From assembly GCF_033723955.1 (NCBI RefSeq), contig NZ_CP137555.1, positions 124,001 through 188,000 on the forward strand: a DNA stretch of 64,000 nt, in the 5' to 3' direction. Under the pieces are notes generated by a model that did no database searches, was not told where the DNA came from, and saw only the letters and a program-made list of their open reading frames with translations. The stretch comes from Microbulbifer pacificus (lineage in GTDB: Bacteria; Pseudomonadota; Gammaproteobacteria; Pseudomonadales; Cellvibrionaceae). The number at the start of each line of letters is the position of its first letter. Within the stretch, counting starts at the first letter, position 1. Position numbers and translations under genes: made by a program. Of the stretch, positions 51,106 through 60,405 are shown in pieces.

Positions 51106-51786
51106 TCACGGCGCCTCCACATCATCAAGCCCGGAGGGCTTTAATTCGTCGCGGTGCGGCTCCAGCAACACCATCAACATATTGAGCAGGTCCTCTCGGG
51201 TGCGCCGCGAGCGCTCGCCCTGCTGGTTTACGATAACCAGCAGCATGGCATGACATGTCTCCAGCGTGGCGCGGGCGAGACGGTTGGTCTCGTTGGGGGG
51301 ACAACGAAAGCCCAGGCGCCGGAACATATCCACCAGATGGTTGATGACCATTTCATCGTGCCGCTCATCCAGCTGATGCAGTTCCGGGATACCCCACATC
51401 GCCTGCACCAGGGGCAGCAGTCCGCGCTGCTCGCGGTAGACGGAGAGCCAGCGGCTCAACAGGTCATCGAGAAAAGAGCGCAGGTCCAGATTCTCCAGCT
51501 CGCCCGCGGCCATATCGTCGAGGCGCTCGCTGAGGCTCGCCAACCACTGCTCGCCCATGGCGTAGAGGATCGCGTGCTTGTTCGGGAAGTAGTGATACAC
51601 GGAGCCGACGGACACACCGAGCTCCTTGGCAATCAGGATGGTGGTGAGGTCGTTCAGCCCGACCTGCTCCAGCAGGCGGCCGGTGGTATCCAGTATCTGA
51701 CGGGCGCGCTCGCGGGCGCGGGCCTGAACCGGCTCCCGTCGCGGCGACAACTGATTTCTGCGGCGATTCTGTTCTGCGGTCGACAC
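51106..51786 (-). CDS. TetR/AcrR-family regulator
   Basis: A 226-residue repressor. The helix-turn-helix is at about 25-75 (ARQILDTTGRLLEQVG and GVSVGSVYHYFPNKHAIL). The ligand-binding half is helical with no diagnostic residues. The start is GTG at 51786 with AGGAT seven bases upstream. It is co-directional with the nucleotidase gene and 128 bp beyond the TonB receptor terminator; it could act on either. Confidence 0.9.
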   Translation of the reverse strand: MSTAEQNRRRNQLSPRREPVQARARERARQILDTTGRLLEQVGLNDLTTILIAKELGVSVGSVYHYFPNKHAILYAMGEQWLASLSERLDDMAAGELENLDLRSFLDDLLSRWLSVYREQRGLLPLVQAMWGIPELHQLDERHDEMVINHLVDMFRRLGFRCPPNETNRLARATLETCHAMLLVIVNQQGERSRRTREDLLNMLMVLLEPHRDELKPSGLDDVEAP

Positions 51787-51842: not shown

Positions 51843-51876
51843 CAAAAAAGCCGGCAATGGTTGCCGGCCTTTTTGC
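51843..51876 (-). terminator. Terminator of the TonB receptor gene
   Basis: GCCGGCAA (51850-51857) pairs with TTGCCGGC (51861-51868); on the minus strand a T run follows, 40 bp after the receptor stop. Confidence 0.85.
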
Positions 51877-51914: not shown

Positions 51915-54287
51915 TCAGAAACGGTAGTCGAGGCTGATTCCCGCCACACGTCCGCGAGACGGGTCGGTCTGGGTGGCCGGCAGGTTGTAATCTGCTGCCG
52001 CGTAGCCCCAGTGGTAATACTCCTCACCGGTCAGGTTTTCCACGTAAACACCGGCGGTCCAGTTTTCGCTGGGCGCGGTGAGCGAAGCACGCAGATTAAC
52101 CAGTCCGCGGCTCGCCAGCTTCACCTCTTCGGTGTTTTCCAGGTCGGCGAACTGCTCACCGGTATAGGTGTACTCACCGGAAAGGGCCAGGCTGCCGAAG
52201 CCCACATCGGTGGTGTAGGTCAGCACGGTTGCCGAGGAAAACTCCGGAGAGAATGCCATCTGGTTGCCGTCGCACTCCTCGCACAACTCTTCCGGCGCAC
52301 CGGTGAACTCGGTATCGAGCCAGGCGAGCCCCATGTACAGATCCAGATTGTCGGTAATCAGCCAGCGGGCATCCACTTCTAGACCCTGCCCTTCACTTTC
52401 ACCCACGTTGCGGGTTACCGCCGCGGCGCCAATGAAGAAGGCCTGCTGCAGGTCGTCGTAGGTGTACTGGAATGCGGCCGCGTTGATGTGCAGGCGGTTG
52501 TCCAGCAGACGGGCCTTCACACCCAGCTCATAGGACAGAACCTGCTCTTCATCAAAGCTGTTGGGCTCACCGGTGGAGCTGTCGACGGTCCACTCATACT
52601 CTTCCAGCCAGGCATCCGGATCTTCGGCATAGGCCGCATCATTGATGCGGTAGGTCAGGTAATCGAAACCGCCGGACTTGTAACCGGTAGCCACACTGGC
52701 GTAAGCGGTAACGGAATCGGAGAAATCGTGGTTCAGCGTGGCGCGACCGGAAATGTTGCTCCAGGTCTTGTCGCCGGTAATCGGACCATCGGTAAACATG
52801 GCCTGGTAGTTCCAGCCCGCGGTCCAGGTGTCCGGCCACGGGGAGTCCACGGTGTATTTCTTCTGGTCTTCGGTATAGCGCACACCGAGGCCGAGGCTGG
52901 TGGACTCGGTCAGGTCAAAGGTGGTGTTCGCAAATACGCCCCAGCCGCTGAATTCACCGCGGGTGTATGCCTCCTCTACAGACATGCCGTCGGGCACTAC
53001 CACGCCACCGGGAATGGCCATGCCCGCAGTGGGCGCGTATTCCCAGGTTTCGCCACCGGTCCAGAAGGCATCATCCATCTCATCGGGGAATACTATGGCG
53101 AGCTCGTCACAGGTCATGGACGAGTTCACGCCGAGCTCGTAGTCCACTTCCATGGCACCGGCGCAGATGAAGTCCTCGGAGTCGACACCGGCAAAGTATG
53201 CGTCCAGATCTTCCTGGTAGTAGCTGGCACCCAGCACCCAGTTGAACGGGCCGGAATTGTTGGAGGTCAGGCGGAATTCCTGGCTGAAGAACTCCCCGGA
53301 CTGATCCCGCACAAAGGTGTCGATGGACTGCCCAGTGCCGTCGAAATCTTCTACATAGGTGTAATTATGGGTCTTGTAACCGGTGATCGAGCTGAAGGTC
53401 ACATCACCCATCTCGCGCTCGATGTTGAGAATCGCATCGGCGATTTCAGCTTGGTCGGTACCCTGCTGATCGTTGTAGACCTGATCGTAATCGCCCTCGG
53501 TGCCGAGAGCGCGGTAGATGGTACCGTCGCTGATGCGGTCTTCGTACTGTGCCAACAGGGTGATAGTGGTGCCTTCAATACCCTCGTACACACCGGTAAA
53601 GCGCATGGCATCTGCCTCGCTGGCACCCAGGTTGCGACCGCCAGCGAGGTTTTTCACATGACCGTCTTCTTCCTGGTGAATACCAGAAATACGCACTGCA
53701 AAATCTTCGCTTACCGGCATATCCACCGCGCCTTCGACGTTCAGGCGGCCGTATTCACCGGCATTTACCGAGATCTCGCTGCCAAATACATCCCCGGGCT
53801 TGCGGGAAGTCATGGAAATTGCACCGGAGGCGGTATTGCGGCCAAACAGGGTACCCTGCGGCCCTTTTACGATTTCCACACGATCCATGTCGAACATGGT
53901 CGGGGTGGCGCCAGTGCGGCTCTGGTAAACGCCATCGAGGAACACGCCCAGCGCCGGGTCACTGCCGGTACCGAAGCTGTTGTTGTTCACACCGCGTACG
54001 GACACGGAATCGAAGAAGGAATCCGTGGTATCGCCGGAAATACCGGGGGTGATCGCGAACAGGTCCTTGAAGTCGCTGAGGTTGGAATTTTTGAGGGTCT
54101 CGCCAGAAAAGGCACTGACGGACATCGGCACATCTTTCAGGGACTCGGCACGCATCTGCGCGGTGACGGTCACCTCTTCGATCTCCGGAGCAGCGATGGC
54201 GCCGCTCGTGATAGTAAATACAACGGCACCAATGGTAGAGGCCAGGATATGTTTTTTGCCTGCAAACGGTTGATCTGACTGCGTCAT
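51915..54287 (-). CDS. TonB-dependent outer-membrane receptor
   Basis: A 790-residue receptor with a signal peptide (1-33), a TonB-box-like EIEEVTVTA at about 34-42, a plug domain (about 45-160, with RVEIVKGPQGTLFGRNTASG) and a beta-barrel ending in the C-terminal phenylalanine (SLDYRF). An extracellular loop contains CEECDG and another pair of cysteines. The substrate is unknown; no iron or vitamin B12 signature is evident. The ATG at 54287 has GGGGAG upstream. Its promoter region carries a 19-bp element that also occurs twice in front of puuB/puuA. Confidence 0.92.
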   Translation of the reverse strand: MTQSDQPFAGKKHILASTIGAVVFTITSGAIAAPEIEEVTVTAQMRAESLKDVPMSVSAFSGETLKNSNLSDFKDLFAITPGISGDTTDSFFDSVSVRGVNNNSFGTGSDPALGVFLDGVYQSRTGATPTMFDMDRVEIVKGPQGTLFGRNTASGAISMTSRKPGDVFGSEISVNAGEYGRLNVEGAVDMPVSEDFAVRISGIHQEEDGHVKNLAGGRNLGASEADAMRFTGVYEGIEGTTITLLAQYEDRISDGTIYRALGTEGDYDQVYNDQQGTDQAEIADAILNIEREMGDVTFSSITGYKTHNYTYVEDFDGTGQSIDTFVRDQSGEFFSQEFRLTSNNSGPFNWVLGASYYQEDLDAYFAGVDSEDFICAGAMEVDYELGVNSSMTCDELAIVFPDEMDDAFWTGGETWEYAPTAGMAIPGGVVVPDGMSVEEAYTRGEFSGWGVFANTTFDLTESTSLGLGVRYTEDQKKYTVDSPWPDTWTAGWNYQAMFTDGPITGDKTWSNISGRATLNHDFSDSVTAYASVATGYKSGGFDYLTYRINDAAYAEDPDAWLEEYEWTVDSSTGEPNSFDEEQVLSYELGVKARLLDNRLHINAAAFQYTYDDLQQAFFIGAAAVTRNVGESEGQGLEVDARWLITDNLDLYMGLAWLDTEFTGAPEELCEECDGNQMAFSPEFSSATVLTYTTDVGFGSLALSGEYTYTGEQFADLENTEEVKLASRGLVNLRASLTAPSENWTAGVYVENLTGEEYYHWGYAAADYNLPATQTDPSRGRVAGISLDYRF

Positions 54288-54383
54288 CGTTACTCCCCGT
54301 GGGTTATTTTTGTTCGGGTTTCTGCCCATTCATTACCACTTAGGACGGACCCGGAGATTGAACTGACCGGCCTGTTATCCCAC

Positions 54384-54402
54384 AAACCGAACAAATATTC
54401 AA
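54384..54402 (+). promoter_or_regulatory. Candidate operator upstream of the TonB receptor gene
   Basis: AAACCGAACAAATATTCAA differs at three positions from the left arm of the palindrome at 55843-55886. It lies about 97 bp upstream of the receptor start codon. Confidence 0.5.
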
Positions 54403-54465
54403 TTTTTGGCCCCACTAAAAAACCTTCAGTCGAAGACGCAGCAGTTTCATAGCGGAAGCCACCAA

Positions 54466-55773
54466 TTACCGGCCCAGCTTGTCCTTCAAGCTGTAATAGA
54501 GCATTCCCGCTACCAGCCCAGGCCAACGCAACAGTGTTCCACCGGGGAAGCTGGGCGTTGGAATGCGCGCCAATATATCAAACCTTTCCTCGGTGCCGGC
54601 AAGCACTTCTGCGAGTATTTTCCCGGCGAAGGTAGCCGTCGGAACGCCGTGCCCCGAATAGCCCTGGCTGTAGTACACATTCGGCTCAAGCCGGCCGATG
54701 CTGGGCATTCTGTTCAGGGTGATGGCGAGCGTGCCCCCCCAGCCAAAATCGATGCGGGTATCTGCGAGTTGCGGATAGATTTCCAGCATGTACTTGCGCA
54801 CGAAAGCGCGAATGTCCTGAGGGAATCGGGAGGAGTAATTCTCTCCCCCACCGAAGACCAAGCGGTTGTCACCGGAGAGTTTCCAGTAATTGATGACAAA
54901 CAGCGTGTCCTGGAGCGCGTAGTCGTTTGCGATCAGCTCCCGCGCAAGCTCCTGCGGAAGCGGCTCGGTCGCCAGCACAAAGTTATTGATAGGCATGATG
55001 CGCCCCGCCATCCTCGGTTCCAGGCCGCCGAGATAGCCATTACAGGCAAGCACTACATTGCGGGCGCGCACACTGCCCCTCGCGGTATTCACAATACAGG
55101 GATTGCCACCGTGATAGCTGGTGACCCGACTGTGTTCAAAAAACTGCACCCCGGCTTTTTCTGCCGCTGCGGCGAGCCCCAGCGCGTAATTGAGTGGATG
55201 CAGATGCAGAGACCCGCTATCCACCTGACCACCGTAAAATCGCTCGGAGCCCACCAGTGACCGCACCTCGTCGCGCTCGGCATAGCGCATTTTGTCGTAG
55301 CCGTAGCGCTGGTTCAGCACTTCCACTTCTTCCTTCAGCCAGGCGTCGTGACTGGGCTTTGCCGCCAGGTGCATGATGCCGCGCTTGAGATCGCACTGGA
55401 TGTTGTGCTTGTGGATCAGATCCTCTACCAGCTGCACCGCTTCAAGCCCCATATCCCAAAGGACTTTGGCGGTATCGACGCCGAGCATTTTCTCCAGGTC
55501 TTCCTGGCCTTTGCGCTGGCCCACGCCAACGTGGCCGCCGTTGCGGCCAGAAGCGCCCCAGGCGATGCGCTCAGCCTCAAGCACTACCACCTTGAAACCG
55601 CGCTCGGCGAGATGCAGCGCGGTCGAGAGCCCGGTATAACCCGCACCAATAACGCACACGTCAGCCTCAACCACTCCCTCGAGTGCGTCGTATGCCGGCG
55701 TATCATTGGCGCTTGCGGCGTAATAGGAATCGGTGTGGCCGAGCAGCTTGGTAACAGTTCCACTGACTGGCAT
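54466..55773 (-). CDS. puuB: FAD-dependent gamma-glutamylputrescine oxidase-like protein
   Basis: A 435-residue DAO-family oxidase. The dinucleotide-binding motif is VIGAGYTGLSTALHLAERG near residues 39-57, and ASGRNGG marks the FAD site. The C-terminal WGGTLAITLNRMPSIG is typical of PuuB/OrdL proteins that oxidise gamma-glutamylputrescine. The start is ATG at 55773 with GGAGA upstream. It is divergent from the puuA-like gene, which supports the assignment; sarcosine-oxidase-like activity is the alternative. Confidence 0.82.
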   Translation of the reverse strand: MPVSGTVTKLLGHTDSYYAASANDTPAYDALEGVVEADVCVIGAGYTGLSTALHLAERGFKVVVLEAERIAWGASGRNGGHVGVGQRKGQEDLEKMLGVDTAKVLWDMGLEAVQLVEDLIHKHNIQCDLKRGIMHLAAKPSHDAWLKEEVEVLNQRYGYDKMRYAERDEVRSLVGSERFYGGQVDSGSLHLHPLNYALGLAAAAEKAGVQFFEHSRVTSYHGGNPCIVNTARGSVRARNVVLACNGYLGGLEPRMAGRIMPINNFVLATEPLPQELARELIANDYALQDTLFVINYWKLSGDNRLVFGGGENYSSRFPQDIRAFVRKYMLEIYPQLADTRIDFGWGGTLAITLNRMPSIGRLEPNVYYSQGYSGHGVPTATFAGKILAEVLAGTEERFDILARIPTPSFPGGTLLRWPGLVAGMLYYSLKDKLGR

Positions 55774-55842
55774 GTTTGAATCTCCGAAAACAGGCTGGTC
55801 CGCTCCGGTTTTGCATCCGGAATCTATAGAGCGCCCGAAACA

Positions 55843-55886
55843 AAACCGAATCATTATTCAAAATTTATTGAATGATAATTCGGTTT
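55843..55886. promoter_or_regulatory. Long inverted repeat between puuB and puuA, candidate operator
   Basis: AAACCGAATCATTATTCAA (55843-55861) and the reverse complement of 55868-55886 (AAACCGAATTATCATTCAA) agree at 17 of 19 positions, with a six-base spacer. The same element occurs once at 54384-54402. It lies 70-113 bp upstream of puuB and 145-188 bp upstream of puuA. It does not resemble the E. coli PuuR site. Confidence 0.65.
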
Positions 55887-56030
55887 TTTGCCATAATCAA
55901 AGCCCACGTGCCGGAATACCGACAATCTTCACGAGCCGTGGCCCCGCCCTGCACCTGCCTGGGTCGCCGAGGCGGGATATATACTAATGAACCCCAATCG
56001 GGGAAAAGCCTTTCATCATCAAGGTGTAAC

Positions 56031-57427: not shown

Positions 57428-59098
57428 TTACTTGTGGCTGGGATCTTTCCAGTAATCCTTCACGGTCTCTTTCATTTCTCTTGCCAGCACCGAGATACCG
57501 AACAGGTTCGGCAGTGTCATGAGCACGATCGCCACCGCCGACAGGTTCCAGATGATGGTAGTGTCTTCAATGGCAGCCCAGAAAAAGGCCACGACATACA
57601 CCAACCGATACGGCATTACCGATTTCGGGCCGAACAGGTAAATCATCGAGCGGTCGCCGTAGTAAGACCAGGCGATCGCGGTGGAAAAGGCGAACAGCAA
57701 AATACCCAAAGTAACGATGTAACTGCCGTACTCGCCGAAGAAACCCTTCTGGAAGGCCCGGTTGGTCAGCGCCACGGAGTGCAGCAGGGAGTTACCCCAG
57801 ACTTCCACATTCGGGTTCACCAGACGACCACCATTCACGTTCAGCACACCAGAGAAGTTGTCGTTACCTACCCGGAACTCTACATCTTCCGCCACAGAGC
57901 GGGAGTTGATCACGGTGTATTCACTGCTGTTCAGTGGGCGGCCATCAGCAACCACGATGGTACCGGTATAGGGGCGAACCTCACTGCTGCGGCCACTCAG
58001 GAATCCGAACAACTCCTTAACGTGCGCCTCTTCCTTATCCGAGTAAGTGCCAGCAACCACCATCATGTCCGCGCGCTCGAAGCGATTCATGAACTTCTCG
58101 GTCCACACACCGGAAGACAGGATCACAAGACCGGTGAGAGTACAGATAATCAGCGTGTCGATGAAAGGCTCGAGCAGGGAAACCATGCCCTCGGAAACCG
58201 GCTCATCCGCGCGCGCCGCGGCGTGCGCAATCGGGGCGGAGCCCTGCCCTGCTTCGTTGGAGAACAGGCCGCGGTTTACCCCGCGGTTGAACGCGTAGGC
58301 GAAACTTGCACCGAGGAAGCCGCCCATTGCTGCGCTGCCATTAAACGCGCCGGAAAACACCTCAACAAAGGATGGAATGATGTTCTCGTAGTTGTAGAGG
58401 ATAACCCCCAGTGCGCCGACGATGTACAGCACCGCCATTACCGGCACAATGGTAGAAGTTACCTTGGCGATACGGGTAATACCGCCAATGATCACCAGGC
58501 CGAGAAGAATGGCGAGTACACCACCGGTCAGCATTTTGCTGAGGCCAAAGGTGTCGTACATGGCCTGGGCGATATTGTTCACCTGCGGGAGGCTACCGGT
58601 ACCGAACGAACTGATGACCGTGGCAATGGCAAAGATTACCGCCAGCCACTTCATGTTCAGGCGGCGCTCCATGTAAAACATCGGGCCACCAGCATAGAAG
58701 CCATCGGCAGCCTTGATGCGGTATTTATGCGAGAGAGTTACCTCGACGAACTTGGTCGTCATACCCAGGAATGCAGTCACCCACATCCAAAAGAGTGCGG
58801 CCGGACCGCCGAGGAAAATAGCGAGACCAACGCCGCCGATGTTACCGGTACCTACAGTACCGGAAAGCGCGGTGGCAAGTGCCTGGAAGTGGGAAGTATC
58901 ACCAGGGTCACCTGGCTTGTCGTATTTACCACGCACAATCTTGATGGCGTGGCCGAAATAGCGGATCTGCGGAAACCCTAGGTAAAGGGTAAAGAAGAAG
59001 CCGACCGCCAACAATACATAAGGGAACCAGAACGCCGAACCCAGAAAGCCATCCAGCGTTAACAACAATTGATTGAACGATTCCAAACCAACCCCCAC
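57428..59098 (-). CDS. AGCS-family sodium:alanine/glycine symporter with a large insertion
   Basis: A 556-residue secondary transporter with the AGCS signature [15 protein letters not shown] and [16 protein letters not shown], taking up small amino acids with sodium. Residues about 333-440, between two membrane segments, form a soluble insertion of about 105 residues (from [14 protein letters not shown] to WGNSLLHS) that typical 450-residue members lack. The start is GTG at 59098 or TTG at 59086; neither has a clean ribosome binding site. Confidence 0.9.
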
Positions 59099-59373
59099 AA
59101 CCTAATTATTTTGATTGATTTACCAACAAAACGGCAAAAAAACAGGCAATCCCACTTAACAAAAAAAACGGACGCCTCTCAAGTGCCGGGCAGAGTAGCA
59201 GTTTCGTCCGCGCGAGAACAGTAATCCGCCAATCAACAGCAGCATAGTCGTTGTTTCTGCCAAAAATTCAACAAATCGCTAATTTTCTCACCAATATCGA
59301 CAATTCTGTCGTATATCCCTACCACCTGCCGATGGTGCAAATACCCGCAGATAAGGTCAGCGGCGCAAGCCGC

Positions 59374-60405
59374 TCACCCATCCGCCCAGCAGGCACTGAA
59401 ACCCGCCCGCTGGGGAAAAACCCCAAATTGCCCACCGGTATGGACAAATACAATGTGCCTGCAACCGGCGTAATGCCCCTGCTCGATATCCTTCAGCAAC
59501 CCGTGAAACGCTTTCCCCGTATACACCGGATCCAGCAAGATTCCTTCCAATTGCGCAGCAAGCGCGATGGTCTGGTATATCTCTTCGGTGGCGATGCCGT
59601 AACCGGGGCCGATATACTTGTCGTTCACATGAATACGCCGCGAGTCGAATGGAAATTCCTGAGCATAGGCCTCAGCCCACTGCCGCACATCCTCCTGTAT
59701 CTTGTCGATGAAATAGGCTTCATTGTCAGACACGGCATAACCGGTAACCCCTGTGTCCGCGCCTAACATCTGGCAACCCAGCGTCAATCCCGCCTGAGTG
59801 CCGCCGCTGCCGCTGGCACACACCAGCCGGTCGGGCTGAAACCCCACTCGCCGACAGTCTTCGAGCAACTCTTCTGCACACTGCAAATAACCCCAGATTC
59901 CAAGCCCGTCGCTACCTCCAGTGGGGATACACAGCGCACGATTTCCCTGATTCTGGTAAAAGCTCGCCCATTCCTCAAACAGCTCAGGCAATCGACTCAC
60001 GTATTCCCTCAGTGGATAGACGGAAACACGGGCGCCGGCGAGATAGTCCACCAGCAGGTTGCCGTCGGGTATATTCCCGCTAGTCAGTTCGGCCGCACCA
60101 CGAAGAATCAAGTGAGCTTTCATTCCGCACTTGGCCGCGGCAAGCGCCGTGGCCCGGCAATGATTCGACTGCTCACCACCACAGGTAATCAGGGTATTGC
60201 ACCCCCGCACCTTTGCCTCGGCAATAATGTATTCGAGCTTGCGCACCTTGTTGCCGGACATGGCACTCTCGGTGAGGTCATCCCGCTTGATCCAGACCTG
60301 AGGTCCACCGAATGGTGTTGAATAAAGCTCGGTGATCTTGTGTAGCGGTTGCAATGGCGTCGGCAGGTTCGCCAGGTGTTCGCGGGCGGGATATTGGATG
60401 CTCAC
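59374..60405 (-). CDS. PLP-dependent D-cysteine desulfhydrase / ACC deaminase-family enzyme
   Basis: A 343-residue fold-type II PLP enzyme. The catalytic lysine is in MSGNKVRKLEY, with TCGGEQSNHCRATA binding the substrate and ASGSGGTQAGLTLG holding phosphate. Family members desulfhydrate D-cysteine or deaminate ACC; sequence alone does not separate these, but the D-cysteine type is more likely. ATG at 60405. It is co-directional with the AGCS gene, but 275 bp away. Confidence 0.85.
   Translation of the reverse strand: MSIQYPAREHLANLPTPLQPLHKITELYSTPFGGPQVWIKRDDLTESAMSGNKVRKLEYIIAEAKVRGCNTLITCGGEQSNHCRATALAAAKCGMKAHLILRGAAELTSGNIPDGNLLVDYLAGARVSVYPLREYVSRLPELFEEWASFYQNQGNRALCIPTGGSDGLGIWGYLQCAEELLEDCRRVGFQPDRLVCASGSGGTQAGLTLGCQMLGADTGVTGYAVSDNEAYFIDKIQEDVRQWAEAYAQEFPFDSRRIHVNDKYIGPGYGIATEEIYQTIALAAQLEGILLDPVYTGKAFHGLLKDIEQGHYAGCRHIVFVHTGGQFGVFPQRAGFSACWADG

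Follow-up and report, generated by a model that had tools for sequence, protein, structure and literature searches.

Polyamines are nitrogen-rich nutrients, and regulons with substrate-specific TonB-dependent receptors exist for siderophores, vitamin B12 and sugars. In the stretch of Microbulbifer pacificus DNA analysed here (the window, 64,000 nucleotides in full), a short element recurs three times, once before the gene of a TonB-dependent receptor and twice between divergent genes that resemble puuB and puuA. The question raised by this locus is whether one regulator controls the receptor together with the puu-like pair, as the preliminary description had suggested, and which protein that regulator could be. 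Judging from the sequence comparisons, we consider it very probable that a single TetR-family repressor, encoded in the cluster itself (51106-51786), uses all three elements as its operators. The link would then reach further than the one first described, as it comprises a conserved operator plus a strong candidate for the regulator inside the window. In the literature on links between TetR proteins, polyamines and TonB, we found neither a description of such a regulon nor a described TonB-dependent receptor for polyamines or larger conjugates.

The elements and the genes beside them

The cluster contains the following features, in order of position:

51106-51786, minus strand: TetR-family regulator (TetR_N + TetR_C_15), co-occurring with the sites and in a conserved position after puuB
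51850-51868, no strand assigned: hairpin between receptor and tetR, terminator-like on the plus strand
51915-54287, minus strand: TonB-dependent receptor, predicted target, 790 aa from the conserved start
54384-54402, plus strand: predicted operator copy 1, before the TonB-dependent receptor gene, exact match to AAACCGAANNANNATTCAA
54466-55773, minus strand: puuB-like FAD-dependent oxidoreductase (DAO family), predicted target
55843-55861, plus strand: predicted operator copy 2, puuB-proximal, exact match to AAACCGAANNANNATTCAA
55868-55886, minus strand: predicted operator copy 3, puuA-proximal, over both divergent promoters, exact match to AAACCGAANNANNATTCAA
56031-57365, plus strand: puuA-like glutamine-synthetase-family ligase, predicted target

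The positions and strands first reported for the three copies are exact. Their similarity had been put at about 16 of 19 positions; the pairwise values are 16, 15 and 17, and all three agree at 15 of 19. The length of 19 bp also needs revision, since the element, when complete, is a palindrome of 22 bp, AAACCGAATnATnATTCGGTTT, with the halves AAACCGAA and TTCGGTTT. In the window copies one half, AAACCGAA, is strong, and the other is weaker and ends in TTCAA, the complement of which is the start of a -35-like TTGAAT. The puuB-side copy of another genome (G010) is a complete palindrome, AAACCGAATCATCATTCGGTTT, and near-complete ones occur in other genomes. The two central copies, 2 and 3, lie 25 bp apart from centre to centre. 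Palindromic operators at the promoters of the target genes are a hallmark of TetR-family repressor regulons. The copies had been placed in promoter regions, and they are indeed intergenic with the starts conserved in relatives, 55773 for puuB and 56031 for puuA; the longest possible reading frames, beginning at 55854 and 55872, would extend into copies 2 and 3.

Without mismatches, AAACCGAANNANNATTCAA occurs at these three sites only in the whole genome of 4,194,096 bases, and the next best match has 2 mismatches. At up to 3 mismatches the window holds 4 matches (0.97 expected), a number that 4 of 100 shuffles also reach, so that the loose pattern by itself is unremarkable. The same applies to the genome as a whole, where 97 matches at 3 mismatches compare with 48 for the reversed pattern and weak matches therefore carry little meaning. 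Across 48 Microbulbifer genomes, the element at up to 1 mismatch is found 208 times, against 5 times for the pattern read backwards, and 40 of the 48 genomes have at least one. A chance origin was rejected on the rarity in the genome and the counts in the genus, in agreement with the initial judgement that the copies are too many for chance; the three elements look like operators.

The proteins encoded by the predicted targets are only distantly related to named families. The receptor has a plug and a beta-barrel (PF07715, 60.9 bits; PF00593, 110.1 bits); it reaches 165 bits with the siderophore-receptor model TIGR01783 (cut-off 223.5), and its PDB matches have E values of 4e-17 or weaker. The ligase scores 199.6 bits with the gamma-glutamylputrescine synthetase model NF045547 and does not reach the cut-off of 650, and the oxidoreductase stays below every named NCBIfam cut-off in the list. 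Because both enzymes lie far below these cut-offs, the puu names are used loosely here. Next to puuA, at 57428-60405 of the window, are genes for an AGCS-type amino-acid symporter and for a PLP enzyme resembling D-cysteine desulfhydrase or D-cysteate sulfo-lyase; the element at up to 3 mismatches was not found in that interval.

Co-inheritance of the element with a TetR gene

Conservation of the element upstream of orthologous receptor and puu genes had been set as a test for this locus, and related genomes bear it out. A puuA-like gene is present in 48 of the 48 Microbulbifer genomes and an orthologue of the window TetR, always at E 4e-102 or better, in 41 of 48. We left out G033, as its puuA is only 53-55% identical and differently arranged, so that 47 genomes remain. 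In 36 of them the gene order is puuA / puuB-receptor-TetR, five have the TetR gene after puuB without a receptor, and six lack both an intact TetR gene and the receptor in this region. Between puuB and puuA, an exact site is present in every one of the 36 genomes with the full cluster. Copy 3 is exact in 35 of them (1 mismatch in G005), and 35 also have a facing site of up to 3 mismatches equivalent to copy 2, separated from copy 3 by 6 bp (28 genomes) or 7 bp (7 genomes) and in some relatives forming a complete palindrome. The receptor site, at up to 2 mismatches, lies 93-100 bp before the receptor gene in 35 of 36; the exception, G042, has 4 mismatches.

Where the TetR gene is missing, the element is missing too. 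The six TetR-free genomes keep puuA at 83-87% identity, and a site of up to 2 mismatches is found in none of them; the best has 3 mismatches in G038 and 5 in G040 and G043, and G021, G028 and G034 have none within 5. The five genomes with TetR and without receptor have weak best sites of 2, 2, 3, 3 and 5 mismatches, which were counted against the TetR. Sites of up to 2 mismatches are thus present in 38 of 41 genomes with the TetR gene versus 0 of 6 without it (Fisher p 8e-6, with kinship ignored). In a puuA tree the 11 receptor-free genomes form one clade (support 100/98) that holds all six TetR-free genomes. The TetR-free label, with G033 included and counted against the clade's five TetR-bearing genomes only, needs two changes and may go back to a single origin. 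In G043 a fragment of a TetR gene, 43% identical, is preserved after puuB (G043:C28:584704-584856, in L190) next to a site decayed to 5 mismatches, and here regulator and site seem to have been lost together.

The window TetR is therefore linked to and co-inherited with the operators, as is typical of a TetR-family repressor regulon. Its domains are clear (PF00440, 47.0 bits, cut-off 24; PF17918, 55.1 bits, cut-off 26.8). The nearest NCBIfam model is BetI with 35.8 bits, versus a cut-off of 118, and the best PDB match, 2oer (E 3e-13), is titled 'Probable transcriptional regulator'; a close characterised relative was found neither in the PDB nor in NCBIfam. In its TetR_N domain, in the palindromic operator over promoters and in having neighbouring genes as targets, the system is like those of TetR, BetI and AcrR. 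The regulator, called unidentified at the outset, now has a strong candidate in this protein, which on the comparative data is the best candidate for binding the element.

Another protein of the same family, weakly TetR_C_31-like (L051), is the likeliest other user of the sites and perhaps autoregulated. Its gene in G001 is preceded at 319 bp by a site with 1 mismatch and at 341 bp by a site with 2 (L051:4400-4440), and among 17 plus-strand loci a site of up to 3 mismatches precedes it in four (L070, L072, L074, L076), with degenerate versions visible by eye in others. This second TetR is present in 48 of 48 genomes, however, including those without sites, and did not turn up beside puu genes in the loci read, while the window TetR fits both the co-occurrence and the linkage to puu. 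We hence consider control by the second TetR improbable and have rejected it, given its universal presence as against a window TetR that tracks the sites. Its own upstream region holds one or two copies, often degenerate and hundreds of bases away, in part of the genus, and the gene may be one of the targets or its product may use the element as well.

PuuR is a repressor of the XRE/cupin type. PMC9397018 describes it as repressing the puu genes of E. coli, and names PauR only in the title of a reference. A PuuR/PauR-type HTH-cupin repressor could in principle control the puu genes here as in E. coli and Pseudomonas. The genome has 15 Cupin_2 matches, which were judged by eye (8) or by frame length (2 frames of 122-127 aa, 5 in frames of 293-477 aa), and among these 15 no HTH-cupin protein was seen. 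PuuR-type control is rejected on this ground and has, in our estimate, very little chance of applying. The puuPADRCBE/PuuR system of E. coli still offers a useful comparison with the TetR-based regulon preferred here. In both, a gene pair of the gamma-glutamyl ligase/oxidase type is accompanied by a repressor gene within the cluster or close to it, and puuC- and puuD-like genes occur in relatives of the Microbulbifer cluster. In contrast to E. coli, the candidate regulator belongs to the TetR family, the ligase and the oxidase are distant relatives, and the regulon adds TonB-dependent receptors, speA and a membrane protein.

The association is also seen outside the genus. When 293 genomes of the order were scanned for the exact motif, without regard to TetR, 15 of them matched, 10 of these from outside Microbulbifer. 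In six of the 10 (G145, G173, G236, G295, G314, G291) the motif stands at puuB-like genes; in the remaining ones (G084, G143, G144, G265) it lies inside other reading frames, which looks like chance. In G145, G173, G236, G295 and G314 a TetR gene whose product is 42-47% identical to the window TetR follows directly after puuB, and in the sixth genome, G291, a TetR gene stands beside neighbouring puuD-puuA genes (read at L240, Aestuariicella albida). TetR relatives directly after puuB with the same site occur in Marinomonas, Oceanospirillum, Amphritea and Halieaceae. In 80 loci chosen by their TetR gene (25 from Microbulbifer, 1.25 Mb) there are 145 sites of up to 2 mismatches versus 2 for the reversed pattern, a count that cannot alone argue for the TetR because the set was selected by it. 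Among the 55 such loci from outside Microbulbifer, the TetR gene lies within 400 bp after a puuB-like gene in 47, and puuA and puuB are divergent in 44. A site of up to 2 mismatches is present in 39 of these 44 (reversed control 0), and the remaining five have sites of 3 or 4 mismatches, four of them palindromic. Shared by Microbulbifer, Marinomonas, Oceanospirillum, Amphritea and Halieaceae, such a regulator-operator pair would allow a function to be assigned to many TetR genes that are now anonymous.

Promoter-like elements under the predicted operators

The predicted promoter elements of the three target genes are:

54374-54379, minus strand: predicted receptor-gene -10, GATAAC, 17 nt from the -35 inside copy 1
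54397-54402, minus-strand reading: predicted receptor-gene -35, TTGAAT; copy 1 also holds most of the spacer
55868-55897, plus strand: predicted puuA promoter, TTGAAT 55868-55873, 18 nt, CATAAT 55892-55897
55872-55900, minus strand: predicted puuB promoter, TTGATT 55900-55895, 17 nt, TATCAT 55877-55872

These elements are conserved in the 36 genomes with the full cluster. At puuA, TTGAAT, which is the end of copy 3, is found in 36 of 36 and CATAAT in 35; at puuB, TTGATT is invariant (36/36) and the -10, inside operator copy 3, reads TATCAT in 19 genomes and TATTAT in 17. The receptor gene has TTGAAT in 28 genomes, with near variants in the rest, and GATAAC (30), AATAAC (5) or GATAAG (1) as its -10. 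A scan with the promoter consensus lists the puuA and puuB pairs and lacks the receptor pair, and with 5 found versus 2.8 expected consensus matches alone are little above chance. For copy 2, the puuB-proximal one, a conserved -10 in register was not found; this copy may be a second binding place. The predicted operators are thus nested over conserved promoter-like elements, which is the arrangement that a repressor would need.

That TTGAAT within the element fits a -35 at both puuA and the receptor gene could also mean that RNA polymerase, and not a regulator, is the reason for its conservation, the element being a composite promoter module. Against this, the element is decayed or absent where puuA is kept but the TetR gene is missing. 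Its placement also differs between targets: at the gene of a membrane protein the element fills the spacer, and at speA it stands upstream of the apparent core promoter. Moreover, the half AAACCGAA is no promoter sequence. A plain promoter repeat is for us a highly unlikely explanation, and was rejected in view of the loss without TetR and the differing placement at other targets.

Under the repressor reading, a TetR dimer would bind AAACCGAATnATnATTCGGTTT, and the weaker half of the operator would double as the -35 (TTGAAT) at puuA and the receptor gene. Bound repressor would cover -35 and spacer at puuA and the receptor gene alike, and at puuB the -10 and part of the spacer. With repressor over these elements, the promoters of puuA, puuB and the receptor gene would all be off. 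A polyamine or a pathway intermediate, the presumed inducer, would release the repressor, and receptor, oxidoreductase and ligase would come on together. We infer both the binding of TetR to the element and the sign of regulation from this geometry and from the comparison of genomes. That one regulator serves the receptor and the puu-like pair, as first proposed, is backed by the conservation of the sites (36/36 between puuB and puuA, 35/36 at the receptor), by the promoter geometry and by the loss of sites without TetR. The hairpin at 51850-51868 may limit read-through into tetR; terminator-like sites are as frequent as expected (6 found, 5.9 expected), and the T run on the opposite strand of the hairpin was read from the sequence by eye.

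Further sites, a membrane protein and other receptors

The element is also found away from the cluster. With one exception, we surveyed the neighbourhood of every off-cluster match listed at up to 1 mismatch, in genomes up to G031. The loci gathered in this way hold 81 sites with no more than 1 mismatch; for 63 of them a recognised gene begins within the next 700 bp, and for 18 none does. The recognised genes, among the matches listed, are speA (17), a conserved membrane protein (15), amine oxidase (10), puuC-like (8), an AptA-like omega-aminotransferase (5), a second receptor (4), puuA/puuB (2), the first receptor (1) and the second TetR (1), counts that show recurrence and not independent discovery, as the reference proteins were drawn from the same loci. 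The amine oxidase gene is followed by a PotF-like gene in L055 and L067, and not in L052. In the window's own genome, sites of 2-3 mismatches precede the amine oxidase, speA, puuC and membrane-protein genes; they are weak evidence, since chance matches are common at such mismatch levels. We inspected 8 of the 18 sites without a target, two of which, L305 and L309, fall within reading frames. In L302 and L336 the site occupies the same intergenic place in two genomes, overlapped by a small reading frame, with no recognised target, and an exact site at L131:5196-5214 (G017) stands just before a reading frame of 251 aa, likewise no recognised target.

The gene context of the PuuC- and PuuD-like genes in relatives is consistent with the Puu pathway. 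PuuC is the best-matching model for the L059 protein (670.5 bits versus a cut-off of 850), and the PuuD-like protein of L115 scores 192.7 bits versus a cut-off of 266. The element is also seen upstream of the biosynthetic arginine decarboxylase gene speA (L054:1177-4503, L069:3983-4001), which links polyamine synthesis to the site, and in L054 a carboxynorspermidine-synthase-like gene (below cut-off) stands behind speA. In 6 of the 9 rows listed for speA (of 20), about 34-36 nt separate the operator from the start of a TATAGTTATTG beyond it. The operator would then sit upstream of the core promoter, and this geometry would make activation possible.

The conserved membrane protein (L122:4846-5685, genome about 3382845-3383684; relatives in L050, L058, L119, L115, L116, L258 and L277) has 278-305 aa, and its motif WGxxGxFLDFWDAFLW is invariant in 8 of 8 aligned relatives. 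Its gene recurs as a predicted target of the operator or beside puu genes. TTGCAA and GATATT flank the operator, which fills the spacer between them, in the nine rows listed (of 16). No Pfam family was found for the one member scanned (L050), and a Foldseek search with a model of the protein (mean pLDDT 77.7) found nothing in the PDB at E 0.001 or better.

Receptors recur beside puu-like genes. In L277, puuD-puuA / puuB-puuC-TetR stand with a receptor gene that has its own site and whose product shares 34% identity with the window receptor, and in G291 a receptor gene follows directly after puuB. A second receptor family in Microbulbifer, 26% identical, has a site 52 bp before the start and is followed by another FAD oxidoreductase gene. 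As the receptor-puu link recurs in these three cases, a polyamine-type substrate may be expected, and the window receptor may import such a compound. In siderophore, B12 and sugar receptor regulons, too, the receptor is expressed with genes for its presumed substrate, which for the present cluster is a prediction; the difference is that the substrate would here be of the polyamine type and that the likeness to siderophore receptors is only distant. Concrete candidates follow from the sites, namely two TonB-dependent receptor families and one membrane protein. More tentatively, and with other outcomes clearly favoured, the TetR could be a two-way switch that represses uptake and breakdown from within their core promoters and supports speA, and hence synthesis, from a site farther upstream than the apparent core promoter, with the receptors as dedicated importers of polyamines or their conjugates. 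The second receptor family is represented at L063:374-7244 (G006) and L061 (G005), with sites also in L306 and L325, and in L063 genes for an aldehyde dehydrogenase and an APC-type permease lie upstream of the receptor.
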